DNA from: Halichondria panicea
Taxonomy: Eukaryota; Porifera; Demospongiae; Suberitida; Halichondriidae
Length of the DNA stretch: 64,000 nt
Assembly (NCBI RefSeq): GCF_963675165.1
Contig: NC_087379.1
Span: forward strand, 5,411,442-5,475,441
Reading direction: 5' to 3'
The notes under the pieces are model-generated. The model was not told where the DNA came from. It saw only the letters and a list, made by a program, of their open reading frames with translations, and searched no databases. Of the stretch, positions 2,586 through 44,350 are shown piece after piece; the stretch's first letter is position 1; every line of letters starts with the position of its first letter. A program made the translations under genes and the position numbers.

Positions 2586-2675
2586 ATGGACATACGTGAT
2601 GCTGCCAGGGCTGGTAACTTGAGTGCTTTACAACATACCATCAAGAGGGGAGATGATGTCAACAGTGTGGATAAG
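2586..2675 (+). CDS. Exon 1: N-terminal ankyrin cap
   Basis: Thirty codons beginning MDIRDAARAGNLSALQ and containing KRGDDVN, an ankyrin cap-like helix pair. The start is supported by the context AAAATGG and by two downstream paralogous copies (37238 and 46449) that begin at the same codon. The donor GTAAGC follows in phase 0. Confidence 0.85.
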
Positions 2676-5600: not shown

Positions 5601-8600
5601 TAGACAAAAGTGTTCATAGTAGAATGAAAGCACCACAGGTGCTGATGCCTCGGTGGAGATGCCAAAGCTACATAAGCTTTTATACATACATTATATCATG
5701 ATGAACATTTTGCATTAATTAATTTTGCTGCATGCAAACTCGAAGAGTGGGTAATGATCGACCACGATTGTTGTTAAAAACGAAAGTCTAAAATTAATTG
5801 CTGCATCATCAGCAGCTGCCAATAGCTAGCGTTCTAGTGCAGAGCTAAGTACTAAGTAGAGTAGCAACACTCGGTAAACAAGTTTTGCTACGTGCTCTTC
5901 TGAAAAGGCTGCAATGGCATTCCAAGTAAGCAAAACTAGGCATAACTCGAGAACGAAGCTTTATTTTGCAAATCCAAGAGAACATGACTAGAAGCATAGA
6001 AACTCTTGCTCGCAGCTGTAGCGGTCTACACAGACACACACACACATGCACACACACACTATCGTATCCCTTGCTTGCGCATGCGCACCGAGGCATAAAA
6101 ACAGTTGACCTTTAATTGTAAGTTGGCCTGACCACTTTAAACTTGCTTGCTATGCCCCTGTTATGGTCTATCACACATAATTATGTGTTGTCAAAAGTTA
6201 CTGTATGCTCTCACTTTTGTAGGATGGGTGGACTCCACTGTTGTGGGCAGCCTATGGAGGTCACACTGACTGTGCTAAAGAGCTGCTCTCCTCAGGAGCC
6301 GTGGTGGACCTGGCTAACAAGGTGAGTATCTGATACTAAACTGATGTGTCTATAGGCAGCATGTTCGTGACCATCACATCCTTTACTAGTGATGGTTGTG
6401 TGGTCCCTATGAGATCCCTAAGGCACTAACATTGACATGATCTACTAGTGTGTCGTACTGCATGTCCTTAATTTGTATGTACATTCATTGAGGTGGCCGG
6501 TATTTATTGTTTAAATAGAGGCTACAAAAGACGAATTAAAGTTATACATTCTAACAACCAAGCGCATCATGGGTAGTTGCGCATTTTTTGCTCATTGGCA
6601 ATCCCGTTCCTTTACTTTATTTATACAAGGCCGTAGCAAGCGGTCAGGTTTTGGCCTGACCACTTTTTGTAGCTGGGTAGGTAATGGTGGTCATTCTTGA
6701 AATTGCATGATCGTTTCCTGGTAATGGTCGCCGATATTGTGCTGATTGGTGAGAAAAAGTTATGACCTTCTTTTAGGTAAAATTCACCGCTGTATCAAAG
6801 TGTTCATAGTAGAATGAAAGCACCGCAGGTGCTGATGCCTCGGTGGAGATGCCAAAGCTACATAACATAAAGCTGCTAATAGTTTTTATACACACATTAT
6901 ATCATGATGAACATTTTGCATTAATTAATTTTGCTGCATGCAAACTCAAAGAGTGGATAATGATCGACCACGATTGTTGTTAAAAACGAGCGATGCCAAA
7001 GTCTAAAATTAATTGCTGCATCATCAGCAGCTACCAATAAGCTAGCGTTCTAGTGCAGAGCTAAGTACTAAGTAGAGTAGCAACACTCGGTAAACAAGTT
7101 TGGCTACGTGCTCTTCTGAAAAGGCTGCAATGGCATTCCAAGTAAGCAAAACTATAGGCATAACTCGAGAACGAAGCTTTATTTTGCAAATCCAAGAGAA
7201 CATGACTAGAAGCATAGAAACTCTTGCTCGCAGCTGTAGCGGTCTACACAGACACACACACACATGCACACACACACTATCGTATCCCTTGCTTGCGCAT
7301 GCGCACCGAGGCATAAAAACAGTTGACCTTTAATTGTAAGTTGGCCTGACCACTTTAAACTTGCTTGCTATGCCCCTGTTATGGTCTATCACACATAATT
7401 ATGTGTTGTCAAAAGTTACTGTATGCTGTAGGGTGGGTTGACTCCACTCATGAAGGCAGCCAGTAAAGGTCACACTGACTGTGCTAAAGAGCTGCTCTCC
7501 TCAGGAGCCGTGGTAGACCTGGCTGACAAGGTGAGTAAACTGATGTGTCTATAGGCAACACGCTGGAATTATTAGCATTTAGGTATTATTTGCATGTACG
7601 TACAATTATAATGGACATTGCCTTAAAACCACCTCTATGTTGAATAATTGTTGACAAGAATTCCATGGAATTGATTGGATTGACTCATTATTTTGGTTTG
7701 TGTGGATTTTAATCTGCCGTCACTCAACTGCTCGCTTGCTGAAAGGTTATAGTTAGTGTTATGTAATTTCGTACGTGGGTGGATGACGTCAGAGGCACCC
7801 ACTCTATTATAGTAAATATTGCCAACCCCTTTCCTTTACCTTCTTTATGGTCTATCACACAGATGTGTTGTCAAAAGTTACTGTATGCTCTCACTTTTGT
7901 AGGATGGGTGGACTCCACTGTTGTGGGCAGCCTATGGAGGTCACACTGACTGTGCTAAAGAGCTGCTCTCCTCAGGAGCCGTGGTGGACCTGGCTAACAA
8001 GGTGAGTATCTGATACTAAACTGATGTGTCTATAGGCAGCATGTTCGTGACCATCACATCCTTTACTAGTGATGGTTGTGTGGTCCCTATGAGATCCCTA
8101 AGGCACTAACATTGACATGATCTACTAGTGTGTCGTACTGCATGTCCTTAATTTGTATGTACATTCATTGAGGTGGCCGGTATTTATTGTTTAAATAGAG
8201 GCTACAAAAGACGAATTAAAGTTATACATTCTAACAACCAAGCGCATCATGGGTAGTTGCGCATTTTTTGCTCATTGGCAATCCCGTTCCTTTACTTTAT
8301 TTATACAAGGCCGTAGCAAGCGGTCAGGTTTTGGCCTGACCACTTTTTGTAGCTGGGTAGGTAATGGTGGTCATTCTTGAAATTGCATGATCGTTTCCTG
8401 GTAATGGTCGCCGATATTGTGCTGATTGGTGAGAAAAAGTTATGACCTTCTTTTAGGTAAAATTCACCGCTGTATCAAAAGTGTTCATAGTAGAATGAAA
8501 GCACCGCAGGTGCTGATGCCTCGGTGGAGATGCCAAAGCTACATAACATAAAGCTGCTAATAGTTTTTATACACACATTATATCATGATGAACATTTTGC

Positions 8601-10014
8601 ATTAATTAATTTTGCTGCATGCAAACTCAAAGAGTGGATAATGATCGACCACGATTGTTGTTAAAAACGATCGATGCCAAAGTCTAAAATTAATTGCTGC
8701 ATCATCAGCAGCTACCAATAGCTAGCGTTCTAGTGCAGAGCTAAGTACTAAGTAGAGTAGCAACACTCGGTAAACAAGTTTGGCTACGTGCTCTTCTGAA
8801 AAGGCTGCAATGGCATTCCAAGTAAGCAAAACTATAGGCATAACTCGAGAACGAAGCTTTATTTTGCAAATCCAAGAGAACATGACTAGAAGCATAGAAA
8901 CTCTTGCTCGCAGCTGTAGCGGTCTACACAGACACACACACACATGCACACACACACTATCGTATCCCTTGCTTGCGCATGCGCACCGAGGCATAAAAAC
9001 AGTTGACCTTTAATTGTAAGTTGGCCTGACCACTTTAAACTTGCTTGCTATGCCCCTGTTATGGTCTATCACACATAATTATGTGTTGTCAAAAGTTACT
9101 GTATGCTCTCACTTTTGTAGGGTGGGTGGACTCCACTGTTGTGGGCAGCCAGTAAAGGTCACACTGACTGTGCTAAAGAGCTGCTCTCCTCAGGAGCCGT
9201 GGTGGACCTGGCTAACAAGGTGAGTATCTGATACTAAACTGATGTGTCTATAGGCAGCATGTTCGTGACCATCACATCCTTTACTAGTGATGGTTGTGTG
9301 GTCCCTATGAGATCCCTAAGGCACTAACATTGACATGATCTACTAGTGTGTCGTACTGCATGTCCTTAATTTGTATGTACATTCATTGAGGTGGCCGGTA
9401 TTTATTGTTTAAATAGAGGCTACAAAAGACGAATTAAAGTTATACATTCTAACAACCAAGCGCATCATGGGTAGTTGCGCATTTTTTGCTCATTGGCAAT
9501 CCCGTTCCTTTACTTTATTTATGCAAGGCCGTAGCAAGCGGTCAGGTTTTGGCCTGACCACTTTTTGTAGCTGGGTAGGTAATGGTGGTCATTTTTGAAA
9601 TTGCATGATAGTTTCCTGGTAATGGTCACCGATATTGTGCTGATTGGTGAGGAAAAGTTATGACCTTTTTTTAGGTAAAATTCACTGCTGTATACAAAAG
9701 TGTTCAAAGTAGAATGAAAGTCTAAAATTAATTGCTGCATCATCAGCAGCTACCAATAGCTAGCGTTCTAGTGCAGAGCTAAGTACATGTACTAAGTAGA
9801 GTAGCAACACTCGGTAAACAAGTTTGGCTACATGCTCTTCTGAAAAGGCTGCAATGGCATTCCAAGTAAGCAAAACTATAGGCATAACTCGAGAACGAAG
9901 CTTTATTTTGCAAATCCAAGAGAACATGACTAGAAACCTATAGAAACTCTTACTTGCACTTGATTCATCCTTGAGCAGCTGTAGCAGTCTACACAGACAC
10001 ACACAGACACACAG

Positions 10015-10045
<31 letters not shown>

Positions 10046-11117
10046 CACACACACACACTATACCGTATCCCTTGTTTGCGCATGCGCACTGAGCCATAAA
10101 AACAGTTGACCTTTAATTGTAAGTTGGCCTGACCACTTTAAACTTGCTTGCTATGCCCCTGTTATGGTCTATCACACATAATTATGTGTTGTCAAAAGTT
10201 ACTGTGTGCTCTCACTTTTGTAGGATGGGTGGACTCCACTGTTGTGGGCAGCCTATGGAGGTCACACTGACTGTGCTAAAGAGCTGCTCTCCTCAGGAGC
10301 CGTGGTGGACCTGGCTAACAAGGTGAGTATCTGATACTAAACTGATGTGTCTATAGGCAGCATGTTCGTGACCATCACATCCTTTACTAGTGATGGTTGT
10401 GTGGTCCCTATGAGATCCCTAAGGCACTAACATTGACATGATCTACTAGTGTGTCGTACTGCATGTCCTTAATTTGTATGTACATTCATTGAGGTGGCCG
10501 GTATTTATTGTTTAAATAGAGGCTACAAAAGACGAATTAAAGTTATACATTCTAACAACCAAGCGCATCATGGGTAGTTGCGCATTTTTTGCTCATTGGC
10601 AATCCCGTTCCTTTACTTTATTTATGCAAGGCCGTAGCAAGCGGTCAGGTTTTGGCCTGACCACTTTTTGTAGCTGGGTAGGTAATGGTGGTCATTTTTG
10701 AAATTGCATGATAGTTTCCTGGTAATGGTCACCGATATTGTGCTGATTGGTGAGGAAAAGTTATGACCTTTTTTTAGGTAAAATTCACTGCTGTATACAA
10801 AAGTGTTCAAAGTAGAATGAAAGTCTAAAATTAATTGCTGCATCATCAGCAGCTACCAATAGCTAGCGTTCTAGTGCAGAGCTAAGTACATGTACTAAGT
10901 AGAGTAGCAACACTCGGTAAACAAGTTTGGCTACATGCTCTTCTGAAAAGGCTGCAATGGCATTCCAAGTAAGCAAAACTATAGGCATAACTCGAGAACG
11001 AAGCTTTATTTTGCAAATCCAAGAGAACATGACTAGAAACCTATAGAAACTCTTACTTGCACTTGATTCATCCTTGAGCAGCTGTAGCGGTCTACACAGA
11101 CACACACAGACACACAG

Positions 11118-11148
<31 letters not shown>

Positions 11149-13414
11149 CACACACACACACTATACCGTATCCCTTGCTTGCGCATGCGCACTGAGCCAT
11201 AAAAACAGTTGACCTTTAATTGTAAGTTGGCCTGACCACTTTAAACTTGCTTGCTATGCCCCTGTTATGGTCTATCACACATAATTATGTGTTGTCAAAA
11301 GTTACTGTATGCTGTAGGATGGGTTGACTCCACTCATGGAGGCAGCCAGTAAAGGTCACACTGACTGTGCTAAAGAGCTGCTCTCCTCAGGAGCCGTGGT
11401 GGACCTGGCTAACAAGGTGAGTATCTGATACTAAACTGATGTGTCTATAGGCAGCATGTTCGTGACCATCACATCCTTTACTAGTGATGGTTGTGTGGTC
11501 CCTATGAGATCCCTAAGGCACTAACATTGACATGATCTACTAGTGTGTCGTACTGCATGTCCTTAATTTGTATGTACATTCATTGAGGTGGCCGGTATTT
11601 ATTGTTTAAATAGAGGCTACAAAAGACGAATTAAAGTTATACATTCTAACAACCAAGCGCATCATGGGTAGTTGCGCATTTTTTGCTCATTGGCAATCCC
11701 GTTCCTTTACTTTATTTATACAAGGCCGTAGCAAGCGGTCAGGTTTTGGCCTGACCACTTTTTGTAGCTGGGTAGGTAATGGTGGTCATTCTTGAAATTG
11801 CATGATCGTTTCCTGGTAATGGTCGCCGATATTGTGCTGATTGGTGAGAAAAAGTTATGACCTTCTTTTAGGTAAAATTCACCGCTGTATCAAAAGTGTT
11901 CATAGTAGAATGAAAGCACCGCAGGTGCTGATGCCTCGGTGGAGATGCCAAAGCTACATAACATAAAGCTGCTAATAGTTTTTATACACACATTATATCA
12001 TGATGAACATTTTGCATTAATTAATTTTGCTGCATGCAAACTCAAAGAGTGGATAATGATCGACCACGATTGTTGTTAAAAACGATCGATGCCAAAGTCT
12101 AAAATTAATTGCTGCATCATCAGCAGCTACCAATAGCTAGCGTTCTAGTGCAGAGCTAAGTACTAAGTAGAGTAGCAACACTCGGTAAACAAGTTTGGCT
12201 ACGTGCTCTTCTGAAAAGGCTGCAATGGCATTCCAAGTAAGCAAAACTATAGGCATAACTCGAGAACGAAGCTTTATTTTGCAAATCCAAGAGAACATGA
12301 CTAGAAGCATAGAAACTCTTGCTCGCAGCTGTAGCGGTCTACACACACACACACACACATGCACACACACACTATCGTATCCCTTGCTTGCGCATGCGCA
12401 CCGAGGCATAAAAACAGTTGACCTTTAATTGTAAGTTGGCCTGACCACTTTAAACTTGCTTGCTATGCCCCTGTTATGGTCTATCACACATAATTATGTG
12501 TTGTCAAAAGTTACTGTATGCTCTCACTTTTGTAGGGTGGGTGGACTCCACTGTTGTGGGCAGCCAGTAAAGGTCACACTGACTGTGCTAAAGAGCTGCT
12601 CTCCTCAGGAGCCGTGGTGGACCTGGCTAACAAGGTGAGTATCTGATACTAAACTGATGTGTCTATAGGCAGCATGTTCGTGACCATCACATCCTTTACT
12701 AGTGATGGTTGTGTGGTCCCTATGAGATCCCTAAGGCACTAACATTGACATGATCTACTAGTGTGTCGTACTGCATGTCCTTAATTTGTATGTACATTCA
12801 TTGAGGTGGCCGGTATTTATTGTTTAAATAGAGGCTACAAAAGACGAATTAAAGTTATACATTCTAACAACCAAGCGCATCATGGGTAGTTGCGCATTTT
12901 TTGCTCATTGGCAATCCCGTTCCTTTACTTTATTTATGCAAGGCCGTAGCAAGCGGTCAGGTTTTGGCCTGACCACTTTTTGTAGCTGGGTAGGTAATGG
13001 TGGTCATTTTTGAAATTGCATGATAGTTTCCTGGTAATGGTCACCGATATTGTGCTGATTGGTGAGGAAAAGTTATGACCTTTTTTTAGGTAAAATTCAC
13101 TGCTGTATACAAAAGTGTTCAAAGTAGAATGAAAGTCTAAAATTAATTGCTGCATCATCAGCAGCTACCAATAGCTAGCGTTCTAGTGCAGAGCTAAGTA
13201 CTAAGTAGAGTAGCAACACTCGGTAAACAAGTTTGGCTACATGCTCTTCTGAAAAGGCTGCAATGGCATTCCAAGTAAGCAAAACTATAGGCATAACTCG
13301 AGAACGAAGCTTTATTTTGCAAATCCAAGAGAACATGACTAGAAACCTATAGAAACTCTTACTTGCACTTGATTCATCCTTGAGCAGCTGTAGCGGTCTA
13401 CACAGACACACACA

Positions 13415-13456
<42 letters not shown>

Positions 13457-16400
13457 CACACACACACACTATACCGTATCCCTTGCTTGCGCATGCGCAC
13501 TGAGCCATAAAAACAGTTGACCTTTAATTGTAAGTTGGCCTGACCACTTTAAACTTGCTTGCTATGCCCCTGTTATGGTCTATCACACATAATTATGTGT
13601 TGTCAAAAGTTACTGTATGCTGTAGGATGGGTTGACTCCACTCATGGAGGCAGCCAGTAAAGGTCACACTGACTGTGCTAAAGAGCTGCTCTCCTCAGGA
13701 GCCGTGGTAGACCTGGCTGACAAGGTGAGTAAACTGATGTGTCTATAGGCAACACGCTGGAATTATTAGCATTTAGGTATTATTTGCATGTACGTACAAT
13801 TATAATGGACATTGCCTTAAAACCACCTCTATGTTGAATAATTGTTGACAAGAATTCCATGGAATTGATTGGATTGACTCATTATTTTGGTTTGTGTGGA
13901 TTTTAATCTGCCGTCACTCAACTGCTCGCTTGCTGAAAGGTTATAGTTAGTGTTATGTAATTTCGTACGTGGGTGGATGACGTCAGAGGCACCCACTCTA
14001 TTATAGTAAATATTGCCAACCCCTTTCCTTTACCTTCTTTATGGTCTATCACACAGATGTGTTGTCAAAAGTTACTGTATGCTCTCACTTTTGTAGGATG
14101 GGTGGACTCCACTGTTGTGGGCAGCCTATGGAGGTCACACTGACTGTGCTAAAGAGCTGCTCTCCTCAGGAGCCGTGGTGGACCTGGCTAACAAGGTGAG
14201 TATCTGATACTAAACTGATGTGTCTATAGGCAGCATGTTCGTGACCATCACATCCTTTACTAGTGATGGTTGTGTGGTCCCTATGAGATCCCTAAGGCAC
14301 TAACATTGACATGATCTACTAGTGTGTCGTACTGCATGTCCTTAATTTGTATGTACATTCATTGAGGTGGCCGGTATTTATTGTTTAAATAGAGGCTACA
14401 AAAGACGAATTAAAGTTATACATTCTAACAACCAAGCGCATCATGGGTAGTTGCGCATTTTTTGATCATTGGCAATCCCGTTCCTTTACTTTATTTATAC
14501 AAGGCCGTAGCAAGCGGTCAGGTTTTGGCCTGACCACTTTTTGTAGCTGGGTAGGTAATGGTGGTCATTCTTGAAATTGCATGATCGTTTCCTGGTAATG
14601 GTCGCCGATATTGTGCTGATTGGTGAGAAAAAGTTATGACCTTCTTTTAGGTAAAATTCACCGCTGTATCAAAAGTGTTCATAGTAGAATGAAAGCACCG
14701 CAGGTGCTGATGCCTCGGTGGAGATGCCAAAGCTACATAACATAAAGCTGCTAATAGTTTTTATACACACATTATATCATGATGAACATTTTGCATTAAT
14801 TAATTTTGCTGCATGCAAACTCAAAGAGTGGATAATGATCGACCACGATTGTTGTTAAAAACGATCGATGCCAAAGTCTAAAATTAATTGCTGCATCATC
14901 AGCAGCTACCAATAGCTAGCGTTCTAGTGCAGAGCTAAGTACTAAGTAGAGTAGCAACACTCGGTAAACAAGTTTGGCTACGTGCTCTTCTGAAAAGGCT
15001 GCAATGGCATTCCAAGTAAGCAAAACTATAGGCATAACTCGAGAACGAAGCTTTATTTTGCAAATCCAAGAGAACATGACTAGAAGCATAGAAACTCTTG
15101 CTCGCAGCTGTAGCGGTCTACACAGACACACACACACATGCACACACACACTATCGTATCCCTTGCTTGCGCATGCGCACCGAGGCATAAAAACAGTTGA
15201 CCTTTAATTGTAAGTTGGCCTGACCACTTTAAACTTGCTTGCTATGCCCCTGTTATGGTCTATCACACATAATTATGTGTTGTCAAAAGTTACTGTATGC
15301 TGTAGGGTGGGTTGACTCCACTCATGAAGGCAGCCAGTAAAGGTCACACTGACTGTGCTAAAGAGCTGCTCTCCTCAGGAGCCGTGGTAGACCTGGCTGA
15401 CAAGGTGAGTAAACTGATGTGTCTATAGGCAACACGCTGGAATTATTAGCATTTAGGTATTATTTGCATGTACGTACAATTATAATGGACATTGCCTTAA
15501 AACCACCTCTATGTTGAATAATTGTTGACAAGAATTCCATGGAATTGATTGGATTGACTCATTATTTTGGTTTGTGTGGATTTTAATCTGCCGTCACTCA
15601 ACTGCTCGCTTGCTGAAAGGTTATAGTTAGTGTTATGTAATTTCGTACGTGGGTGGATGACGTCAGAGGCACCCACTCTATTATAGTAAATATTGCCAAC
15701 CCCTTTCCTTTACCTTCTTTATGGTCTATCACACAGATGTGTTGTCAAAAGTTACTGTATGCTCTCACTTTTGTAGGATGGGTGGACTCCACTGTTGTGG
15801 GCAGCCTATGGAGGTCACACTGACTGTGCTAAAGAGCTGCTCTCCTCAGGAGCCGTGGTGGACCTGGCTAACAAGGTGAGTATCTGATACTAAACTGATG
15901 TGTCTATAGGCAGCATGTTCGTGACCATCACATCCTTTACTAGTGATGGTTGTGTGGTCCCTATGAGATCCCTAAGGCACTAACATTGACATGATCTACT
16001 AGTGTGTCGTACTGCATGTCCTTAATTTGTATGTACATTCATTGAGGTGGCCGGTATTTATTGTTTAAATAGAGGCTACAAAAGACGAATTAAAGTTATA
16101 CATTCTAACAACCAAGCGCATCATGGGTAGTTGCGCATTTTTTGCTCATTGGCAATCCCGTTCCTTTACTTTATTTATACAAGGCCGTAGCAAGCGGTCA
16201 GGTTTTGGCCTGACCACTTTTTGTAGCTGGGTAGGTAATGGTGGTCATTCTTGAAATTGCATGATCGTTTCCTGGTAATGGTCGCCGATATTGTGCTGAT
16301 TGGTGAGAAAAAGTTATGACCTTCTTTTAGGTAAAATTCACCGCTGTATCAAAAGTGTTCATAGTAGAATGAAAGCACCGCAGGTGCTGATGCCTCGGTG

Positions 16401-18980
16401 GAGATGCCAAAGCTACATAACATAAAGCTGCTAATAGTTTTTATACACACATTATATCATGATGAACATTTTGCATTAATTAATTTTGCTGCATGCAAAC
16501 TCAAAGAGTGGATAATGATCGACCACGATTGTTGTTAAAAACGATCGATGCCAAAGTCTAAAATTAATTGCTGCATCATCAGCAGCTACCAATAGCTAGC
16601 GTTCTAGTGCAGAGCTAAGTACTAAGTAGAGTAGCAACACTCGGTAAACAAGTTTGGCTACGTGCTCTTCTGAAAAGGCTGCAATGGCATTCCAAGTAAG
16701 CAAAACTATAGGCATAACTCGAGAACGAAGCTTTATTTTGCAAATCCAAGAGAACATGACTAGAAGCATAGAAACTCTTGCTCGCAGCTGTAGCGGTCTA
16801 CACAGACACACACACACATGCACACACACACTATCGTATCCCTTGCTTGCGCATGCGCACCGAGGCATAAAAACAGTTGACCTTTAATTGTAAGTTGGCC
16901 TGACCACTTTAAACTTGCTTGCTATGCCCCTGTTATGGTCTATCACACATAATTATGTGTTGTCAAAAGTTACTGTATGCTCTCACTTTTGTAGGGTGGG
17001 TGGACTCCACTGTTGTGGGCAGCCAGTAAAGGTCACACTGACTGTGCTAAAGAGCTGCTCTCCTCAGGAGCCGTGGTGGACCTGGCTAACAAGGTGAGTA
17101 TCTGATACTAAACTGATGTGTCTATAGGCAGCATGTTCGTGACCATCACATCCTTTACTAGTGATGGTTGTGTGGTCCCTATGAGATCCCTAAGGCACTA
17201 ACATTGACATGATCTACTAGTGTGTCGTACTGCATGTCCTTAATTTGTATGTACATTCATTGAGGTGGCCGGTATTTATTGTTTAAATAGAGGCTACAAA
17301 AGACGAATTAAAGTTATACATTCTAACAACCAAGCGCATCATGGGTAGTTGCGCATTTTTTGCTCATTGGCAATCCCGTTCCTTTACTTTATTTATGCAA
17401 GGCCGTAGCAAGCGGTCAGGTTTTGGCCTGACCACTTTTTGTAGCTGGGTAGGTAATGGTGGTCATTTTTGAAATTGCATGATAGTTTCCTGGTAATGGT
17501 CACCGATATTGTGCTGATTGGTGAGGAAAAGTTATGACCTTTTTTTAGGTAAAATTCACTGCTGTATACAAAAGTGTTCAAAGTAGAATGAAAGTCTAAA
17601 ATTAATTGCTGCATCATCAGCAGCTACCAATAGCTAGCGTTCTAGTGCAGAGCTAAGTACATGTACTAAGTAGAGTAGCAACACTCGGTAAACAAGTTTG
17701 GCTACATGCTCTTCTGAAAAGGCTGCAATGGCATTCCAAGTAAGCAAAACTATAGGCATAACTCGAGAACGAAGCTTTATTTTGCAAATCCAAGAGAACA
17801 TGACTAGAAACCTATAGAAACTCTTACTTGCACTTGATTCATCCTTGAGCAGCTGTAGCAGTCTACACAGACACACACAGACACACAGACACACACACAC
17901 ACACACACACACACATGCACACACACACACTATACCGTATCCCTTGTTTGCGCATGCGCACTGAGCCATAAAAACAGTTGACCTTTAATTGTAAGTTGGC
18001 CTGACCACTTTAAACTTGCTTGCTATGCCCCTGTTATGGTCTATCACACATAATTATGTGTTGTCAAAAGTTACTGTGTGCTCTCACTTTTGTAGGATGG
18101 GTGGACTCCACTGTTGTGGGCAGCCTATGGAGGTCACACTGACTGTGCTAAAGAGCTGCTCTCCTCAGGAGCCGTGGTGGACCTGGCTAACAAGGTGAGT
18201 ATCTGATACTAAACTGATGTGTCTATAGGCAGCATGTTCGTGACCATCACATCCTTTACTAGTGATGGTTGTGTGGTCCCTATGAGATCCCTAAGGCACT
18301 AACATTGACATGATCTACTAGTGTGTCGTACTGCATGTCCTTAATTTGTATGTACATTCATTGAGGTGGCCGGTATTTATTGTTTAAATAGAGGCTACAA
18401 AAGACGAATTAAAGTTATACATTCTAACAACCAAGCGCATCATGGGTAGTTGCGCATTTTTTGCTCATTGGCAATCCCGTTCCTTTACTTTATTTATGCA
18501 AGGCCGTAGCAAGCGGTCAGGTTTTGGCCTGACCACTTTTTGTAGCTGGGTAGGTAATGGTGGTCATTTTTGAAATTGCATGATAGTTTCCTGGTAATGG
18601 TCACCGATATTGTGCTGATTGGTGAGGAAAAGTTATGACCTTTTTTTAGGTAAAATTCACTGCTGTATACAAAAGTGTTCAAAGTAGAATGAAAGTCTAA
18701 AATTAATTGCTGCATCATCAGCAGCTACCAATAGCTAGCGTTCTAGTGCAGAGCTAAGTACTAAGTAGAGTAGCAACACTCGGTAAACAAGTTTGGCTAC
18801 ATGCTCTTCTGAAAAGGCTGCAATGGCATTCCAAGTAAGCAAAACTATAGGCATAACTCGAGAACGAAGCTTTATTTTGCAAATCCAAGAGAACATGACT
18901 AGAAACCTATAGAAACTCTTACTTGCACTTGATTCATCCTTGAGCAGCTGTAGCGGTCTACACAGACACACACAGACACA

Positions 18981-19016
<36 letters not shown>

Positions 19017-22000
19017 CACACACACACACTATACCGTATCCCTTGCTTGCGCATGCGCACTGAGCCATAAAAACAGTTGACCTTTAATTGTAAGTTGGCC
19101 TGACCACTTTAAACTTGCTTGCTATGCCCCTGTTATGGTCTATCACACATAATTATGTGTTGTCAAAAGTTACTGTATGCTGTAGGATGGGTTGACTCCA
19201 CTCATGGAGGCAGCCAGTAAAGGTCACACTGACTGTGCTAAAGAGCTGCTCTCCTCAGGAGCCGTGGTGGACCTGGCTGACAAGGTGAGTAAACTGATGT
19301 GTCTATAGGCAACACGCTGGAATTATTAGCATTTAGGTATTATTTGCATGTACGTACAATTATAATGGACATTGCCTTAAAACCACCTCTATGTTGAATA
19401 ATTGTTGACAAGAATTCCATGGAATTGATTGGATTGACTCATTATTTTGGTTTGTGTGGATTTTAATCTGCCGTCACTCAACTGCTCGCTTGCTGAAAGG
19501 TTATAGTTAGTGTTATGTAATTTCGTACGTGGGTGGATGACGTCAGAGGCACCCACTCTATTATAGTAAATATTGCCAACCCCTTTCCTTTACCTTCTTT
19601 ATGGTCTATCACACAGATGTGTTGTCAAAAGTTACTGTATGCTCTCACTTTTGTAGGATGGGTGGACTCCACTGTTGTGGGCAGCCTATGGAGGTCACAC
19701 TGACTGTGCTAAAGAGCTGCTCTCCTCAGGAGCCGTGGTGGACCTGGCTAACAAGGTGAGTATCTGATACTAAACTGATGTGTCTATAGGCAGCATGTTC
19801 GTGACCATCACATCCTTTACTAGTGATGGTTGTGTGGTCCCTATGAGATCCCTAAGGCACTAACATTGACATGATCTACTAGTGTGTCGTACTGCATGTC
19901 CTTAATTTGTATGTACATTCATTGAGGTGGCCGGTATTTATTGTTTAAATAGAGGCTACAAAAGACGAATTAAAGTTATACATTCTAACAACCAAGCGCA
20001 TCATGGGTAGTTGCGCATTTTTTGCTCATTGGCAATCCCGTTCCTTTACTTTATTTATACAAGGCCGTAGCAAGCGGTCAGGTTTTGGCCTGACCACTTT
20101 TTGTAGCTGGGTAGGTAATGGTGGTCATTCTTGAAATTGCATGATCGTTTCCTGGTAATGGTCGCCGATATTGTGCTGATTGGTGAGAAAAAGTTATGAC
20201 CTTCTTTTAGGTAAAATTCACCGCTGTATCAAAAGTGTTCATAGTAGAATGAAAGCACCGCAGGTGCTGATGCCTCGGTGGAGATGCCAAAGCTACATAA
20301 CATAAAGCTGCTAATAGTTTTTATACACACATTATATCATGATGAACATTTTGCATTAATTAATTTTGCTGCATGCAAACTCAAAGAGTGGATAATGATC
20401 GACCACGATTGTTGTTAAAAACGATCGATGCCAAAGTCTAAAATTAATTGCTGCATCATCAGCAGCTACCAATAGCTAGCGTTCTAGTGCAGAGCTAAGT
20501 ACTAAGTAGAGTAGCAACACTCGGTAAACAAGTTTGGCTACGTGCTCTTCTGAAAAGGCTGCAATGGCATTCCAAGTAAGCAAAACTATAGGCATAACTC
20601 GAGAACGAAGCTTTATTTTGCAAATCCAAGAGAACATGACTAGAAGCATAGAAACTCTTGCTCGCAGCTGTAGCGGTCTACACAGACACACACACACATG
20701 CACACACACACTATCGTATCCCTTGCTTGCGCATGCGCACCGAGGCATAAAAACAGTTGACCTTTAATTGTAAGTTGGCCTGACCACTTTAAACTTGCTT
20801 GCTATGCCCCTGTTATGGTCTATCACACATAATTATGTGTTGTCAAAAGTTACTGTATGCTCTCACTTTTGTAGGGTGGGTGGACTCCACTGTTGTGGGC
20901 AGCCAGTAAAGGTCACACTGACTGTGCTAAAGAGCTGCTCTCCTCAGGAGCCGTGGTGGACCTGGCTAACAAGGTGAGTATCTGATACTAAACTGATGTG
21001 TCTATAGGCAGCATGTTCGTGACCATCACATCCTTTACTAGTGATGGTTGTGTGGTCCCTATGAGATCCCTAAGGCACTAACATTGACATGATCTACTAG
21101 TGTGTCGTACTGCATGTCCTTAATTTGTATGTACATTCATTGAGGTGGCCGGTATTTATTGTTTAAATAGAGGCTACAAAAGACGAATTAAAGTTATACA
21201 TTCTAACAACCAAGCGCATCATGGGTAGTTGCGCATTTTTTGCTCATTGGCAATCCCGTTCCTTTACTTTATTTATGCAAGGCCGTAGCAAGCGGTCAGG
21301 TTTTGGCCTGACCACTTTTTGTAGCTGGGTAGGTAATGGTGGTCATTTTTGAAATTGCATGATAGTTTCCTGGTAATGGTCACCGATATTGTGCTGATTG
21401 GTGAGGAAAAGTTATGACCTTTTTTTAGGTAAAATTCACTGCTGTATACAAAAGTGTTCAAAGTAGAATGAAAGTCTAAAATTAATTGCTGCATCATCAG
21501 CAGCTACCAATAGCTAGCGTTCTAGTGCAGAGCTAAGTACATGTACTAAGTAGAGTAGCAACACTCGGTAAACAAGTTTGGCTACATGCTCTTCTGAAAA
21601 GGCTGCAATGGCATTCCAAGTAAGCAAAACTATAGGCATAACTCGAGAACGAAGCTTTATTTTGCAAATCCAAGAGAACATGACTAGAAACCTATAGAAA
21701 CTCTTACTTGCACTTGATTCATCCTTGAGCAGCTGTAGCAGTCTACACAGACACACACAGACACACAGACACACACACACACACACACACACACATGCAC
21801 ACACACACACTATACCGTATCCCTTGTTTGCGCATGCGCACTGAGCCATAAAAACAGTTGACCTTTAATTGTAAGTTGGCCTGACCACTTTAAACTTGCT
21901 TGCTATGCCCCTGTTATGGTCTATCACACATAATTATGTGTTGTCAAAAGTTACTGTGTGCTCTCACTTTTGTAGGATGGGTGGACTCCACTGTTGTGGG

Positions 22001-22860
22001 CAGCCTATGGAGGTCACACTGACTGTGCTAAAGAGCTGCTCTCCTCAGGAGCCGTGGTGGACCTGGCTAACAAGGTGAGTATCTGATACTAAACTGATGT
22101 GTCTATAGGCAGCATGTTCGTGACCATCACATCCTTTACTAGTGATGGTTGTGTGGTCCCTATGAGATCCCTAAGGCACTAACATTGACATGATCTACTA
22201 GTGTGTCGTACTGCATGTCCTTAATTTGTATGTACATTCATTGAGGTGGCCGGTATTTATTGTTTAAATAGAGGCTACAAAAGACGAATTAAAGTTATAC
22301 ATTCTAACAACCAAGCGCATCATGGGTAGTTGCGCATTTTTTGCTCATTGGCAATCCCGTTCCTTTACTTTATTTATGCAAGGCCGTAGCAAGCGGTCAG
22401 GTTTTGGCCTGACCACTTTTTGTAGCTGGGTAGGTAATGGTGGTCATTTTTGAAATTGCATGATAGTTTCCTGGTAATGGTCACCGATATTGTGCTGATT
22501 GGTGAGGAAAAGTTATGACCTTTTTTTAGGTAAAATTCACTGCTGTATACAAAAGTGTTCAAAGTAGAATGAAAGTCTAAAATTAATTGCTGCATCATCA
22601 GCAGCTACCAATAGCTAGCGTTCTAGTGCAGAGCTAAGTACTAAGTAGAGTAGCAACACTCGGTAAACAAGTTTGGCTACATGCTCTTCTGAAAAGGCTG
22701 CAATGGCATTCCAAGTAAGCAAAACTATAGGCATAACTCGAGAACGAAGCTTTATTTTGCAAATCCAAGAGAACATGACTAGAAACCTATAGAAACTCTT
22801 ACTTGCACTTGATTCATCCTTGAGCAGCTGTAGCGGTCTACACAGACACACACAGACACA

Positions 22861-22896
<36 letters not shown>

Positions 22897-25800
22897 CACA
22901 CACACACACTATACCGTATCCCTTGCTTGCGCATGCGCACTGAGCCATAAAAACAGTTGACCTTTAATTGTAAGTTGGCCTGACCACTTTAAACTTGCTT
23001 GCTATGCCCCTGTTATGGTCTATCACACATAATTATGTGTTGTCAAAAGTTACTGTATGCTGTAGGATGGGTTGACTCCACTCATGGAGGCAGCCAGTAA
23101 AGGTCACACTGACTGTGCTAAAGAGCTGCTCTCCTCAGGAGCCGTGGTGGACCTGGCTGACAAGGTGAGTAAACTGATGTGTCTATAGGCAACACGCTGG
23201 AATTATTAGCATTTAGGTATTATTTGCATGTACGTACAATTATAATGGACATTGCCTTAAAACCACCTCTATGTTGAATAATTGTTGACAAGAATTCCAT
23301 GGAATTGATTGGATTGACTCATTATTTTGGTTTGTGTGGATTTTAATCTGCCGTCACTCAACTGCTCGCTTGCTGAAAGGTTATAGTTAGTGTTATGTAA
23401 TTTCGTACGTGGGTGGATGACGTCAGAGGCACCCACTCTATTATAGTAAATATTGCCAACCCCTTTCCTTTACCTTCTTTATGGTCTATCACACAGATGT
23501 GTTGTCAAAAGTTACTGTATGCTCTCACTTTTGTAGGATGGGTGGACTCCACTGTTGTGGGCAGCCTATGGAGGTCACACTGACTGTGCTAAAGAGCTGC
23601 TCTCCTCAGGAGCCGTGGTGGACCTGGCTAACAAGGTGAGTATCTGATACTAAACTGATGTGTCTATAGGCAGCATGTTCGTGACCATCACATCCTTTAC
23701 TAGTGATGGTTGTGTGGTCCCTATGAGATCCCTAAGGCACTAACATTGACATGATCTACTAGTGTGTCGTACTGCATGTCCTTAATTTGTATGTACATTC
23801 ATTGAGGTGGCCGGTATTTATTGTTTAAATAGAGGCTACAAAAGACGAATTAAAGTTATACATTCTAACAACCAAGCGCATCATGGGTAGTTGCGCATTT
23901 TTTGCTCATTGGCAATCCCGTTCCTTTACTTTATTTATACAAGGCCGTAGCAAGCGGTCAGGTTTTGGCCTGACCACTTTTTGTAGCTGGGTAGGTAATG
24001 GTGGTCATTCTTGAAATTGCATGATCGTTTCCTGGTAATGGTCGCCGATATTGTGCTGATTGGTGAGAAAAAGTTATGACCTTCTTTTAGGTAAAATTCA
24101 CCGCTGTATCAAAAGTGTTCATAGTAGAATGAAAGCACCGCAGGTGCTGATGCCTCGGTGGAGATGCCAAAGCTACATAACATAAAGCTGCTAATAGTTT
24201 TTATACACACATTATATCATGATGAACATTTTGCATTAATTAATTTTGCTGCATGCAAACTCAAAGAGTGGATAATGATCGACCACGATTGTTGTTAAAA
24301 ACGATCGATGCCAAAGTCTAAAATTAATTGCTGCATCATCAGCAGCTACCAATAGCTAGCGTTCTAGTGCAGAGCTAAGTACTAAGTAGAGTAGCAACAC
24401 TCGGTAAACAAGTTTGGCTACGTGCTCTTCTGAAAAGGCTGCAATGGCATTCCAAGTAAGCAAAACTATAGGCATAACTCGAGAACGAAGCTTTATTTTG
24501 CAAATCCAAGAGAACATGACTAGAAGCATAGAAACTCTTGCTCGCAGCTGTAGCGGTCTACACAGACACACACACACATGCACACACACACTATCGTATC
24601 CCTTGCTTGCGCATGCGCACCGAGGCATAAAAACAGTTGACCTTTAATTGTAAGTTGGCCTGACCACTTTAAACTTGCTTGCTATGCCCCTGTTATGGTC
24701 TATCACACATAATTATGTGTTGTCAAAAGTTACTGTATGCTGTAGGGTGGGTTGACTCCACTCATGAAGGCAGCCAGTAAAGGTCACACTGACTGTGCTA
24801 AAGAGCTGCTCTCCTCAGGAGCCGTGATAGACCTGGCTGACAAGGTGAGTAAACTGATGTGTCTATAGGCAACACGCTGGAATTATTAGCATTTAGGTAT
24901 TATTTGCATGTACGTACAATTATAATGGACATTGCCTTAAAACCACCTCTATGTTGAATAATTGTTGACAAGAATTCCATGGAATTGATTGGATTGACTC
25001 ATTATTTTGGTTTGTGTGGATTTTAATCTGCTGTCACTCAATTGCTACATGTAGCTTGCTGAAAGGTTAGAGTTAGTGTTATGTACTTTCGTACGTGGGT
25101 GGATGACGTCAAATGCAACCACTCTATTATAGTAAATAATGCCAACCCCTTTCCTTTACTTAATTTATGGTCTATCACACAAATGTGTTGTCAAAAGTTA
25201 CTGTATGCTCTCACTTTTGTAGGATGGGTGGACTCCACTCTTGTGGGCAGCCTATGGAGGTCACACTGACTGTGCTAAAGAGCTACTCTCCTCAGGAGCC
25301 GTGATAGACCTGGCTAACAAGGTGAGTATCTGATACTAAACTGATGTGTCTATAGGCAGCATGTCCGTGACCATCACATCATGTACTAGTGATGGTTGTG
25401 TGGTTCCTATGAGATTCCTAAGGCACTAACATTGACATGATCTACTAGTGTGTCGTACTGCATGTCCTTAATTTGTATGTACATTCATTGAGGTGGCTGG
25501 CATTTATTGTTTAAATAAAGGCTACAAAAGATGAATTACATTCTAACAACAAAGCGCATCATGGGTAGTTGCGCATTTTTTGCTCATTGGCAATCCCGTT
25601 CCTTTACTTTATTTATGCAAGGCCGTATCAAGCGGTCAGGTTTTGGCCTGACCACTTTTTGTAGCTGGGTAGGTAATGGTGGTCATTCTTGAAATTGCAT
25701 GATCATTTCCTGGTAATGGTCGCCGATATTGTGCCGCGCGCATTTTTTACTCATTGGCAATCCCGTTCCTTTACTTTATTTATGCAAGGCCGTACCAAGC

Positions 25801-27217: not shown

Positions 27218-30200
27218 CAGCTTTACCGTATCCCTTGTGCGGCTACGCCTTGAGGCATAATTATACCCGGACAATTTCCAAATAATTATTTTTTGCTGTC
27301 CGATAAATTAGAAGATATACGATAATAGCTTTATACACACATTATATCATGATCAGGGGCTTCCCCTCTTTGCACTAATAAAGTGAGCACATGTACTTTA
27401 TAGAGTACATAGTTGCGTAGTTATACTTAACAAACAGCTTTATACATGTATCTATACCTCTTACAGTAGTTGATGACTGAACAGAGCTGTCATTTGTCTT
27501 AACTCTTAATGTGCAATTACCATTGCCAGTATTGCTCTGTCAGCAAAGTACATGTCATACGCATTAGACCACTTTTACCTCTTACAATGTACGTCTCATC
27601 CCTTCATATGATCATCATCACAGGATGGAGAGACTGCTCTGATGATGGCCAAGAAATCATATCGCCCTAACCCTTCAGTAATAAAGCTGTTGGAGGAAGC
27701 TGCTAAGTCACATGTGAGTCCATATACCTCAATAATGCATACACTGATCACAGAGGAGGTACAATTAGCCTCCTCTGCATTGATCATAAGTGTTTTAGTT
27801 AGTTCTTCCTGAATTACAATTACTGTAACATTAATTAAAAACACATTAATCAATTATTAGAAGTGTTTTCCTTTCACCAAGAGTTCATTATAGCCTAGAT
27901 TGTATATTTTGTTGTGGCTCATGTTAGTATCTGTGGTGATGATTGAGAGGTGTTGTTAGCATTCAAGCTATAGGTGTACTAATATAGACGTTCATTGCAT
28001 GGATAATTGAAGTGTGGAATGTGTATTATATTGTATTGCTCTTCACAGGGCCATGATACAGTCAGAGAAGAGGTGTCTTCTAAATTAGGTATGTCAGCAG
28101 GAACAAGGCTATAACTATAATATTGTGTGTGGAAGTGTTCTACAGTAGCGGTCAATATAAAGTACAGTGACCCTACTGTATATACCAAACACAGTTCTAG
28201 TATCACTATAATCTGAACTAGCTTACGTCAGCTGGTAATTTACCAAACTCAGACTCAGTTACTCATTCTGCAAAAGAATATAATAATTTACTTACTTAAT
28301 AGGCATAATTTCTATACTGCAGATAATTCACCTGCCCCATATCTTACCATCAGTATGTCTCCAACATTGAGTATGTATAAGCTTAGCTGCTTTGGTGTTA
28401 TGGTAATTGTTCATGCCACTAATCAATGTATAATTATAGGACCATCCGCTAAACGAGTCACTCTTCAAGAACTAGTAGAGCAATACAATCTGACTGACGA
28501 GCAACTCGACAGTGAAATAGAGGTTCCCGATACTCCCGAATTGGCCTTATGTTTTGATGATGTGGAACTTTATTCAACTGCAATGGGGCTAGCTATTGCT
28601 GAACAAGCCGATGTGAACCAATCACGTGGAACTCAAGCAGCCATGATGAAGTGCTTGCAAATCTGGAAACAACACAATCCTTTTCAAGCAACTTACAGAG
28701 CTCTACTGGATATCGCACTGAGATTGAGGAAAGGAGACACAGCTCATCAAGTCTGTCAGCAATTGACCAAACGTAAGTATACATGCATGTACACATGTTA
28801 CTACATGTCAGGTGATAACCACCCTCCGCCTAAGCCCTCTACTAAGTAGCTATTCGACTCATATCCATAATTACCGGTATTAAGATTGAAATCACAACAG
28901 AGAAGACAATCCCTACAGATTGTGACCATCATGCATGCATGCTTGTACACGTCCCGCACTGTTGAGTACAAGCGAGGTATATAGGGTAGTGTGCTTGTGT
29001 GTAGACTGTTAGAGCTGCTCAAGAATCAGCAAGAAGAGTTTCTATAGGCTTCTAATGTTTTCTTGGATTTGTATTTGTGGATTTGCAAAATAAAGCTTCG
29101 CCATTGCAGCCTTTTCAGAAGAGTCCGTAGCAAAACTTATTCACCGAGTGTTGCTACTCTACTTATAATATTAGTTATCTCTGCACTAGAATGCTAGCTG
29201 CAAGAGTGAGAAGAGACTGCTGACTTGCAGCCAATAATTTTAGACTTGTATCAATCGTTTTTAACAACAATCATCGTGGATCATTACCCACTATTTGAGT
29301 TTCCCTGTGATTGTGTATTCTGCGCAGCAAATTAAAAATGTTCATTATGATAATTATAATCAATGTGTGTATAAAAGCTAGCTATTAGTAGTTTTATGTT
29401 ATGTAGCTTTGGCACCTGCGGTGCTTTCATCAATCGGACTTCAGTTTTGATACAAAATGTGCCACATAAATAATAATTATTTACCACTACTTTGGTTCAA
29501 TAATTATTTTATCTTGTATAACCGATTGTTTACTTTTTTACAGTCAATATTCAAAACCGAACCTACTTAAAAAAACTGGATGAGCTGATGGCCGACAAAA
29601 GTGGTACTATAGAGCTACACTACCTCAAGACACACTTCATTGGTCCCTCGGGTCTTGGAAAAACGACCACTCGACAGCGGCTTGTTGGATCCATCACTAA
29701 CCTGTCTTTGCTGCCTGAAGATCAAAGGAAACGTTGCAGTACATTACTAGTCGAGTGTGAACAAGTATTGGCCTTTGTGGACAAATCTGGAACAAAGCTT
29801 GAATTCAAAGCATCTTCAAGTCTAGAGGAAGAAACACAGTTTATCTTCTCTTACCTTATGTCCTGTGAACCTATTGAAGACAGCACTGTCAGCAATACTA
29901 GTACACCTAAGGAACAGCCCAAAAAAGAAACCACTGACCCAAAGAAGCTAACTCAACTCAAGATCGATGAAGCTGCTACTGTACCCAAAGAAACAGTGTC
30001 ACCAACACCAGAACCACCGGAAAAGGTTGTGAAAGTGACCACTGTAGATGTTGGAAAGGTTGTCTCGAGACTCCGGAGCATTGTGGGTTCAGGAGAGTAC
30101 ACTAAAGAGCTGCTGAACAAAGTCCTACTCAATCTGATCGATATAGGTGGGCAGCCTGGATTCGTGGAGATGTTTCCTTTTCTAAGCAAAGGCGCAGGGA

Positions 30201-37237: not shown

Positions 37238-37332
37238 ATGGACATACACATTGAATTGCTGCCTGTGATGGTGACTTGAGTGCTGTGCAAGCTGCCATAA
37301 TTAAGAGAGGAGATGATGTAAACAGTATGGAA
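37238..37332 (+). pseudogene. Broken copy of the ankyrin first exon
   Basis: Starts ATGGACATACAC like the exons at 2586 and 46449 and ends GGAGATGATGTAAACAGTATGGAA|GTAAGC. A net five-base insertion after codon 4 shifts the frame, giving a TGA at codon 14. An extra codon (ATT) is also present. No ankyrin exon follows in the next 9 kb. Confidence 0.75.
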
Positions 37333-42475: not shown

Positions 42476-43406
42476 CTAGTCTAGTTTACTACATCTATGT
42501 CCAATAATAGCATGTTCATGGCAGATCCTGATGGTACAGTTGGGGCAAGCCATTGCTGTGTGCTTTTGCTCCTTGCTGGGTATCCTGTCTTGCACACATA
42601 TTTGACATCTACCTCTGCTCAGTCCCACTCTGCTGACACTCACACGGATGTCCTGTGAGGGAGGATTACCAAGGTTGAGACCACTATACACATCAAACGT
42701 ACATAGATACCCACAACAAGAACAAGAGCAGCACCACACCTTGAAACCTAGCTTTACAGGCTTTCTGGGCATATGAATTTTACCCCCTTTTCTACCCTTG
42801 TACTTAATCATCATTTCATCTACGGAAAGCTCTTGGCTAGGATGATATTTGGCCAAGTAGTTTGTACTGAGCGTTTCCAAAACTATATGTATCTTGCTTG
42901 TTATCTTTTTGCTATCAACTATGCATGTATTGTCGTCACAATGGAGATAGCGCCGCAAGGATTTAAATCTATTGAAAGGCATGGTGTCCTTAACAGCCTG
43001 TACTCCTAAGAGCCGATCTGTGGACCAGTAGTCAGTATACTCGGGGAGCCTATGAATACCCATCTCCAGTATTATGCCAATAAATACCCAGATCTCGTCT
43101 CTATGAGTACCCTTCCAACTTTTAGCTCCACACTGTGTGGCATACGGGTTTGTTTGCTCGGCTATGTGCTCACACAGCTATCTGGCCACAATAGTTTCAC
43201 AAAGTCTATGAACGCAGTGTTACAGGGGTCAACTTTATCTGCAGCACCAACTACACCCTTGAACTCGGGATATTTCCCAGTGGACTTAGCTTTTCGTAAT
43301 CCATCCTGTCTTGCCAGCTTCCTTCGTTTCGGAGTTGGAGCCATACCATCCACCAGCTTGTCTCCTCCTCCTCCTCCGTCTTCTGTGTCCTCGTCGTCAC
43401 TCGCGT
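42476..43406 (-). pseudogene. piggyBac transposase, decayed (main exon)
   Basis: Minus-strand reading gives FVKLLWPDSC, WKGTHRDEIWVFIGI, MGIHRLPEYTDYWSTD, FNRFKSLRRYLHCDD, ELSVDEMMIKYKGRKG and KPVKLGFKVW, a clear piggyBac transposase series. A Cys/His-rich tail (CQICVQ ... CPNC ... CHEHA) follows. There is a frameshift near 43178, and about 200-250 residues normally lying between TFDVYSG and the tail are missing. The exon start follows an acceptor at 43407-43408 on the minus strand. Inactive as it stands. Confidence 0.85.
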
Positions 43407-43529: not shown

Positions 43530-43544
43530 GAAACGGGAGGAGCC

Positions 43545-44350
43545 TAATACACCACAGGGACTATGAACATCATTATAGGAGCGCTGCGACCACATAATAG
43601 CGCTATGAATATCATTAAGTGCTGGGGGGGGCAGTACAGTACAGCAGAGGAAAAGGCTCGTCCACATATAAAGCAGTGTGGAAGGAGCCTAATTAACCAC
43701 AGGACAACTATGAATACCATTATGGGAGCGCTCCGACCACATAATAGCGCTATGAATATCATTAAGTGCTGGGGGGTGGGGGGGGACAGTACAGTACAGC
43801 AGAGCTCGTCCAGATATAAAGCAGTGTGGGAGGAGCCTAATTAACCACAGGACAACTATGAATACCATTATGGGAGCGCTCCAACCACATAATAGCGCTA
43901 TGAATACCATTAAGTGCTAGGGGGGGGGACAGTACAGTACAGCAGAGCTCGTCCACATATAAAGCAGTGTGGGAGGAGCCTAATTAACCACAGGACAACT
44001 ATGAATACCATTATGGGAGCGCTCCAACCACATAATAGTGCTATGAATATCATTAAGTGCTGGGGTGGTGGGCAGTACAGTACAGCAGAGGAAAAGGCTC
44101 GTCCACTTCAAAGCAGTGTGGGAGGAGCCTAATTAACCACAGGACAACTATGAATACCATTATGGGAGCGCTCCAACCACATAATAGTGCTATGAATATC
44201 ATTAAGTGCTGGGGGGGCAGTACAGTACAGTAGAGTACAGCACAGCAGAGGAAAAAAGGCACAAGAAAAAAGGCTCATCCACATCGAAGGCCGCTCCCAT
44301 AGAGTCTAATAAACCACAAGGACTATGAATATAATTATAGGAGAGCTTAG
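43545..44350. repeat. About 147-base minisatellite, six copies
   Basis: The marker CTATGAA recurs at 43561, 43708, 43856, 43999, 44148 and 44323. Units contain GGGAGGAGCCTAATTAACCA, GGAGCGCTCC and a G-run followed by CAGTACAGTACAGCAG. No coding potential is credible. Confidence 0.9.

Follow-up and report, generated by a model that had tools for sequence, protein, structure and literature searches.

How can varied recognition proteins arise in animals without antibodies? This open question is raised by a locus of the sponge Halichondria panicea, located in a stretch of 64,000 bp (C3:5411442-5475441, hereafter the window), in which a gene on the + strand holds 21 tandem cassette exons encoding one ankyrin repeat each, followed by regions for a Roc-like GTPase and a Death domain. 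According to the analysis presented here, in which a genome of 131.5 Mb (39 contigs) was searched, the array probably represents a germline-diversified ankyrin recognition module of a Death-domain GTPase, which unequal exchange, the homogenisation of introns, and diversifying selection would have shaped; a probability of about 0.6 is assigned to this reading. All readings are drawn from the DNA sequence of this single genome. Wnt domains were matched in 10 pieces on three of its contigs and in none of 14 control genomes (prokaryotic, as far as named), as befits an animal, and the low number of Wnt pieces and the size of the genome would agree with a sponge.

A preliminary description of the locus had placed 21 cassette exons between positions 6223 and 25321, each of them 99 bases long, encoding one 33-residue ankyrin repeat, in phase 0 at both ends, and with the donor AAG/GTGAGT (exon/intron). 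All of this has been confirmed for the 21 exons, which are open throughout and preceded by a TAG acceptor. The assignment to ankyrin is very strong, with PF00023 aligned over positions 1-33 of its 33 profile positions (in a query made of the two caps that flank the array and 4 of the 21 cassettes), and ankyrin-1 and designed ankyrin repeat proteins (DARPins) are among the PDB matches of the repeats. A strict search for cassettes (AG, 99 open nucleotides, GT[AG][AT]G, and an ankyrin signature) returned 21 on the + strand of the window, none on the - strand, and none in any of 30 dinucleotide-preserving shuffles, which rules out a chance origin of the array. The exons had also been called near-identical, a term that needs qualification: at the nucleotide level they comprise 8 distinct sequences, and at the protein level 7, with a mean pairwise difference of 6.1% in DNA and a mean pairwise protein identity of 89% (minimum 76%). 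Judging from these values, the cassettes of the window are recent duplicates.

Length and sequence divide the introns between the cassettes into three families (1110-1119, 372-378, and 991-1004 bp), with mean identities of 99.7, 97.5, and 99.1% within families (introns of the sister gene described below counted in) and no match over the whole length between families. The earlier statement that introns are almost as conserved as exons holds within families, where they are even more conserved than the exons, and fails between them. The array is further organised into higher-order units, which recur with a shift of ~3880 bp and are 99.5% identical over 5.9 kb. A sister gene lies ~98 kb downstream on the same contig and holds 12 cassettes by the strict search, versus 21 in the window; one of its introns (S9) falls outside the three families. 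Outside the array, nine coding pieces of both genes are 99.2-100% identical, exon 1 is 98.9% identical over 88 of its 90 bases, four introns or intron parts show 99.2-100%, and the 3' flank 96.7%, while alignments extended to the flanks and to the minisatellite described below give 95.8-98.3%. Since the number of cassettes differs by nine while the rest of the gene is nearly unchanged, turnover in number must be fast. Cassettes are phase-symmetric, and exon and intron would be copied together, so that the array can change in number with the reading frame kept; the expandability that had been proposed for it is thus borne out by the sister gene. Some cassette types of the sister, such as G-W-LW-YG and G-L-ME-SK, are new combinations of segments found in the window, which suggests that exchange takes place within exons, with recurrent change as another possibility.

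It is unlikely that the sister gene is an uncollapsed allele, as both copies are ~98 kb apart on one contig. An assembly artefact is also a less likely source of the array, because the repeated units differ from each other (the intron families are 97.5-99.7% alike), because the sister and other arrays have the same design, and because errors would not prefer surface codons. Segmental duplications surround the locus (the window and loci L009-L026), with shifts of ~97-98, 168, and 80 kb and identities of 95.8-99.5%.

The evolution of exons and introns could be followed separately in three paralog arrays that share one intron of ~687 bp, with a mean difference of 1.0%: C3:8051499, C3:7728157 (picked for its regular spacing), and C3:7806619 (picked since its introns matched). 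Cassettes of other fetched genes, with introns of other kinds, were left out. In C3:8051499, the mean difference is 0.5% among nine introns of 683-687 bp and 12.5% among the nine exons that precede them (a tenth cassette was excluded, as its following intron, of 659 bp, is unlike the others). When the 19 exon-intron units of the three arrays are pooled, nucleotide diversity (pi) is 0.0092 for the introns (47 of 700 columns variable) and 0.147 for the exons (42 of 99), the exon difference being larger than the intron difference in 169 of 171 pairs. The 58 pairs whose introns differ by 0.5% or less show a mean exon difference of 13.3%, and intron divergence is low also in the 50-bp windows adjoining both exon edges. 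In the arrays that were read, the shared intron occupies an equal place in every repeat, with a period of ~760-786 bp. A 601-bp intron piece is present in at least 40 copies at 94-100% identity between 7.48 and 8.24 Mb of C3 (40 of 145 candidates scored; 3 short rows were dropped from 43). For 14 of these 40 introns, the preceding exon is one of the 40 that were listed as matches of a single query exon: two at 100% (the query and an identical copy), one at 98%, and eleven at 88-92%, while the exons preceding the remaining 26 lie outside the matches listed for that query.

Differences between exons concentrate at a few codons. Among 22 exons of the three arrays, nonsynonymous diversity (pN) reaches 0.49 at codons 1, 3, 7, 8, 11, and 12, 0.24 at codons 17-20, 32, and 33 (both six-codon groups being chosen after inspection of the data), and 0.016 at the other 21 codons, which constitute the framework. 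With an exon-wide synonymous diversity (pS) of 0.088, pN/pS at the first group is 5.6 (bootstrap 4.5-7.1), a value that belongs to the three paralog arrays and not to the array of the window. An entropy ranking led to the same six positions, in the order 3, 8, 11, 7, 12, 1, among 51 distinct core cassettes out of 85 (nine exons of C-terminal type having been set aside from 94). The positions randomised in DARPin libraries, which we take to be 2, 3, 5, 13, 14, and 33 (cassette positions 33, 1, 3, 11, 12, and 31), have a mean entropy of 1.82 versus 0.58 (one-sided p 0.006); position 31 is nearly invariant, and the strongly variable 7 and 8 are absent from this set. The accessible portions of PMC8683736 and PMC3366976 give no DARPin position numbers. 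According to these assumed positions and to the mapping of fungal repeats discussed below, the variable codons would largely correspond to the ankyrin binding surface.

The four-gamete test is failed by 238 of 351 informative site pairs, a result that recurrent change would also give. Departures from the most common base at the six codons are of several kinds (G>A 39, G>T 30, T>G 24, A>T 14, T>A 10, others 16), and no signature of single-base mutagenesis, like that of diversity-generating retroelements (DGR), is seen in them. Because synonymous diversity in the exons is ~10 times the diversity of the introns, the exons must predate the surrounding introns, or mutate faster. The contrast between both would be explained by homogenised introns, together with selection for different exons.

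The array belongs to a gene that extends beyond it at both ends, from 2586 to 36424, which supports and refines the earlier view of a single gene. A hand-spliced model of 31 exons encodes 2885 residues, with all phases compatible and a single terminal stop, in the order N-terminal cap, 21 cassettes, C-terminal cap, short linker, Death-like domain, Roc-like GTPase with a minisatellite, Death domain, and C-terminal part (Table 1). Four pieces of the model were scanned with Pfam: the caps with 4 of the 21 cassettes, the Death-like exon with the GTPase half, the half that follows the minisatellite, and the C-terminal part. None of them matched NACHT or NB-ARC, nor a protein kinase (17 cassettes and the minisatellite being left out of these pieces); the model begins at the ankyrin cap. 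The sequences GPSGLGKT (P-loop) and DIGGQ in the large exon are presumably GTPase motifs.

According to the favoured explanation, the 21 one-exon repeats between two ankyrin caps would make up the half of a large, receptor-like protein that binds the ligand, and would be followed by a Roc-like GTPase flanked by a Death-like domain on its N-terminal side and a Death domain on its C-terminal side. As the repeat pattern suggests, exon and intron would be copied jointly by unequal exchange, shifting the number of repeats with the frame unbroken, and a difference in number is indeed observed between the two near-identical sister genes. Within the gene family, the introns, whose likeness is observed in the three paralog arrays, would be homogenised by gene conversion or by recent spread, and selection would hold the exons apart at ligand-facing residues, so that each gene would display its own stacked surface. 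The stacked repeats may form one long binding surface, from which the GTPase and Death domains would pass the signal of a bound ligand on to a death or defence response. An immune or cell-death function, and a choice among cassettes by splicing, can be proposed from the sequence in the same conditional terms.

Several observations weigh against this reading. Only 7 of the 21 cassettes of the window are distinct as proteins, so that its own array offers little surface diversity and has mostly undergone expansion; the recognition module suggested in the preliminary description finds its support in the relatives, with their excess of changes at surface codons. These three arrays are not a random sample, as spacing and intron match guided their choice, and recombining repeats can inflate pN/pS. 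No exon is common to any two of the three arrays, and a comparison of 94 exons showed no 5' block (36 nt) or 3' block (63 nt) to be exactly the same in independent gene groups, so that recent exchange of exons between genes is not seen. Regarding the downstream domains that had been announced (ROCO, death, and CARD-like), Death is found once above the cut-off, and Roc remains below it (E 0.015, with AAA_22 at E 0.071 in the same GTPase piece), being suggested otherwise by the presumed motifs. COR has no Pfam match in the half of the GTPase exon that follows the minisatellite, nor elsewhere in the scanned pieces; CARD has none in the C-terminal part, and the last exon scanned alone returned nothing. 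The GTPase region has no convincing match in the PDB. Likewise, the GTPase exon of one paralog (L034) gave no Pfam match.

Neutral growth of the array would account for part of these data. In this case, recent unequal crossing-over would have expanded a recombination-prone repeat to 21 copies, tolerated because of their symmetric phase and without any role in recognition. The ~3880-bp shift of the higher-order units (99.5% over 5.9 kb), the 7 distinct proteins among 21 cassettes, and a giant in-frame minisatellite in the same gene, whose surrounding frame also differs in length between the sisters, are all in line with it. However, neither the pN/pS of 5.6 at surface codons of three related arrays nor hundreds of cassette exon starts throughout the genome (see below) would be expected, while the intact frames and splice sites of 21 out of 21 cassettes constitute a weak argument at such recent divergence; neutrality as the whole explanation is considered rather unlikely. 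A process targeted to the exons (mutagenesis or very short conversion tracts), with homogeneous introns that merely date the copies, would in turn produce pairs with intron differences of 0.5% or less and a mean exon difference of 13.3%, low intron divergence in the 50-bp windows at both exon edges, and exons that are not common to arrays with identical or near-identical introns. Nevertheless, the changes at the six codons are mixed and lack a single-base signature, the synonymous diversity of the exons (0.088) also exceeds that of the introns, as expected of older exons with homogenised introns, and sharp edges can arise by selection, which makes such a process decidedly improbable.

It could also be postulated that the introns spread as introner-like elements, inserted or copied at the same phase-0 site between older repeats that were already unlike. 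The copies of the 601-bp piece (at least 40 at 94-100%, C3 7.48-8.24 Mb) and the position of shared introns between unlike exons in the three arrays agree with this idea, which is nonetheless very unlikely: the intron sits at the identical place of every repeat in the arrays read, in periods of ~760-786 bp, the copies listed are confined to one chromosome region, and in other genes the flanks of the cassette exons are similar while the intron bodies are different, a pattern for which tandem duplication is the simpler explanation. A more ambitious reading is that the gene family works as a germline, and possibly also somatic, generator of diversity, in which near-identical introns, kept alike at about a dozen places of one chromosome, act as a recombination scaffold and a process confined to the 99-bp exons rewrites the ankyrin surface codons. 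This reading seems doubtful at present.

Table 1. Exons and other features of the ankyrin-Death gene, with positions in the window.
Feature	Position	Strand	Remarks
Exon 1: start codon and N-terminal ankyrin cap (MDIRDAARAGNLSALQHTIKRGDDVNSVDK)	2586..2675	+	phase-0 donor GTAAGC
Cassette 1	6223..6321	+	type D-W-LW-YG
Cassette 2	7432..7530	+	type G-L-MK-SK
Cassette 3	7903..8001	+	type D-W-LW-YG
Cassette 4	9121..9219	+	type G-W-LW-SK
Cassette 5	10224..10322	+	type D-W-LW-YG
Cassette 6	11318..11416	+	type D-L-ME-SK
Cassette 7	12536..12634	+	type G-W-LW-SK
Cassette 8	13626..13724	+	type D-L-ME-SK
Cassette 9	14097..14195	+	type D-W-LW-YG
Cassette 10	15306..15404	+	type G-L-MK-SK
Cassette 11	15777..15875	+	type D-W-LW-YG
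Cassette 12	16995..17093	+	type G-W-LW-SK
Cassette 13	18096..18194	+	type D-W-LW-YG
Cassette 14	19186..19284	+	type D-L-ME-SK
Cassette 15	19657..19755	+	type D-W-LW-YG
Cassette 16	20875..20973	+	type G-W-LW-SK
Cassette 17	21976..22074	+	type D-W-LW-YG
Cassette 18	23066..23164	+	type D-L-ME-SK
Cassette 19	23537..23635	+	type D-W-LW-YG
Cassette 20	24746..24844	+	type G-L-MK-SK; position 28 = isoleucine
Cassette 21	25223..25321	+	type D-W-LW-YG; position 28 = isoleucine
C-terminal ankyrin cap exon (DGETALMMAKKSYRPNPSVIKLLEEAAKSH)	27624..27713	+	phase 0
Short linker exon	28049..28088	+	phase 0 in, 1 out
First Death-like exon	28440..28772	+	Pfam Death E 0.037 when scanned alone, below cut-off
Large exon (5.2 kb): Roc-like P-loop GTPase half, minisatellite, unassigned half at the expected place of COR	29544..34711	+	
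24-bp in-frame minisatellite (SKSDSTTA)n within the GTPase exon	30514..33307	+	
Exon following the GTPase exon	34852..35083	+	
C-terminal Death domain, first exon	35169..35290	+	PF00531 E 1.6e-5, above cut-off
C-terminal Death domain, second exon	35550..35705	+	donor GTTGGC, the weakest of the model
Short exon	35819..35867	+	phase 0 in, 1 out
Last exon, ending at the stop	36126..36424	+	CARD-like part of the preliminary description; no Pfam match

The minisatellite encodes ~930 residues of SKSDSTTA/DKSDSTTA. The open frame that contains it comprises 1769 aa in the window gene versus 1545 aa in the sister, and the frames around it vary among paralogs (1769, 1545, 1119, 993 aa, and others).

The gene is a member of a large family. 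Throughout the genome, its GTPase piece is matched at least 143 times (130 of 267 candidates scored), often in clusters on C1, C3, C4, and C6, some of these matches being two pieces of a single gene and the weakest possibly other GTPases. A 32-base pattern of the exon start, acceptor included, matches 492 times with at most one mismatch (222 exactly), with places known for ~100 among the matches listed per search, while the reversed pattern used as a control matches nowhere in the genome. A genome search with Pfam Roc (141 matches) was discarded as a family count, as the window copy was not listed and many matches lie in short frames like those of small GTPases. In 20 cassettes of different lineages, pair identity is 0.90-1.00 over the last 20 columns of the upstream intron, 0.52-0.73 over the next ~30, and 0.21-0.39 further away (columns that are not mostly gaps), and 0.85-0.86 over the first 20 columns of the following intron. 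These conserved ends may serve splicing, or may offer short homology for exchange.

Other pieces related to the gene are found in the window. A second ankyrin gene or remnant (46449-61339, + strand) shows an N-cap-like exon at 46449-46538 (70% identity), cassettes at 47503 and 50213, and a C-cap-like exon at 61253-61339; between it and the sister there is no GTPase match among the matches listed. A further N-cap-like piece is located at 37258-37332. Upstream, a Death-like exon at 1753-2073, 38% identical to the first Death-like exon of the gene and with a stop soon after, is apparently the end of an ankyrin-Death gene without a GTPase. In addition, two stretches of open frame (42479-43177 on the - strand and 44902-46045 on the + strand) resemble transposases by eye (piggyBac-like, IS-like), and a tandem repeat with a 143-bp unit (43535-44235) adjoins a long CA run.

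What a single genome already offers is a set of cassettes whose framework is fixed, surface positions that are under strong selection in related arrays, and array lengths that vary between near-identical genes, with introns that record the history of recombination separately from the exons. It also makes natural ankyrin sequences available for comparison with designed ankyrin binders. If a diversity generator did operate here, in a non-bilaterian animal, it would be a naturally occurring equivalent of a designed ankyrin library, coupled to a Death-domain GTPase.

Among known systems, DAPK1-type ROCO proteins contain a protein kinase domain. Their domain order is given in an abstract as ANK-ROC-COR-Death, and the sponge gene resembles them in its ankyrin repeats, its Roc-like region, and the Death domain that follows (PF00531 E 1.6e-5). 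It differs in that no kinase was matched in the scanned pieces and in the presence of an additional Death-like exon, the minisatellite insert, the expanded exon array, and many paralogs. The Death/TRADD-N proteins with ankyrin repeats of the sponge Amphimedon also represent a lineage-specific expansion of the Death superfamily with variable repeat ends (PMC8195603), although their central domain is another one, and exon cassettes are not described for them in the consulted part of that work.

The brown-algal leucine-rich repeat (LRR)-ROCO proteins share other features. They are reportedly the subject of Zambounis et al. 2012 as well, a work cited by Teng et al. 2024. In these proteins, each LRR is encoded by one 72-bp phase-2 exon, the exons are tandem and shuffled, positions on the concave face are positively selected, the GTPase is of Roc type, alternative splicing has been seen, and a role as immune receptors has been proposed (Teng et al. 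2024, PMC11378527, as far as its consulted sections go). The sponge gene likewise has tandem exons, one of fixed length and phase per repeat (99 bp and phase 0-0 in 21 of 21), and diversifying selection seems to act on the putative binding face in its relatives (pN/pS 5.6 in three paralog arrays). In contrast, the repeat is ankyrin (PF00023) instead of leucine-rich, with 99-bp phase-0 exons instead of 72-bp phase-2 ones, and the gene belongs to an animal, contains Death domains and an array of 21, and has introns ~99% alike between genes. Regarding Roc-COR, the sponge protein shows a sub-threshold Roc (E 0.015), COR without a match, and no convincing PDB match.

Fungal NLR proteins with high internal repeat conservation (Dyrka et al. 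2014, PMC4986451; Ament-Velasquez et al. 2025, PMC12222747; both consulted in part) hold near-identical ANK, TPR, or WD repeats that undergo concerted evolution and change in copy number, and their selected ANK positions, with one exception, map to the inner helices and the hairpin, on the concave face (PMC4986451). The array of the window would be counted among such repeats, defined by more than 85% identity over at least 100 aa (mean pairwise protein identity 89%, lowest 76%). Unlike the fungal proteins, whose switch is NACHT or NB-ARC, neither of these domains was matched in the pieces scanned here; and while the sponge gene has one exon per repeat, the word "intron" is absent from the main text of PMC4986451.

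Among the papers listed by searches of an open-licence library, none was seen to describe arrays with one ankyrin repeat per exon in a GTPase/Death gene of an animal. The sponge gene would work like both the algal and the fungal system, but because the repeat is ankyrin, NACHT/NB-ARC was not found, and Roc-COR is unproven, it is assigned to neither of them; the brown-algal LRR-ROCO proteins are the nearest published system found, and the fungal NLRs the nearest in evolutionary behaviour. Should the arrays vary between individuals or be spliced selectively, they would provide an ankyrin-based counterpart of both the exon-shuffled algal receptors and the fungal receptors for self and non-self.

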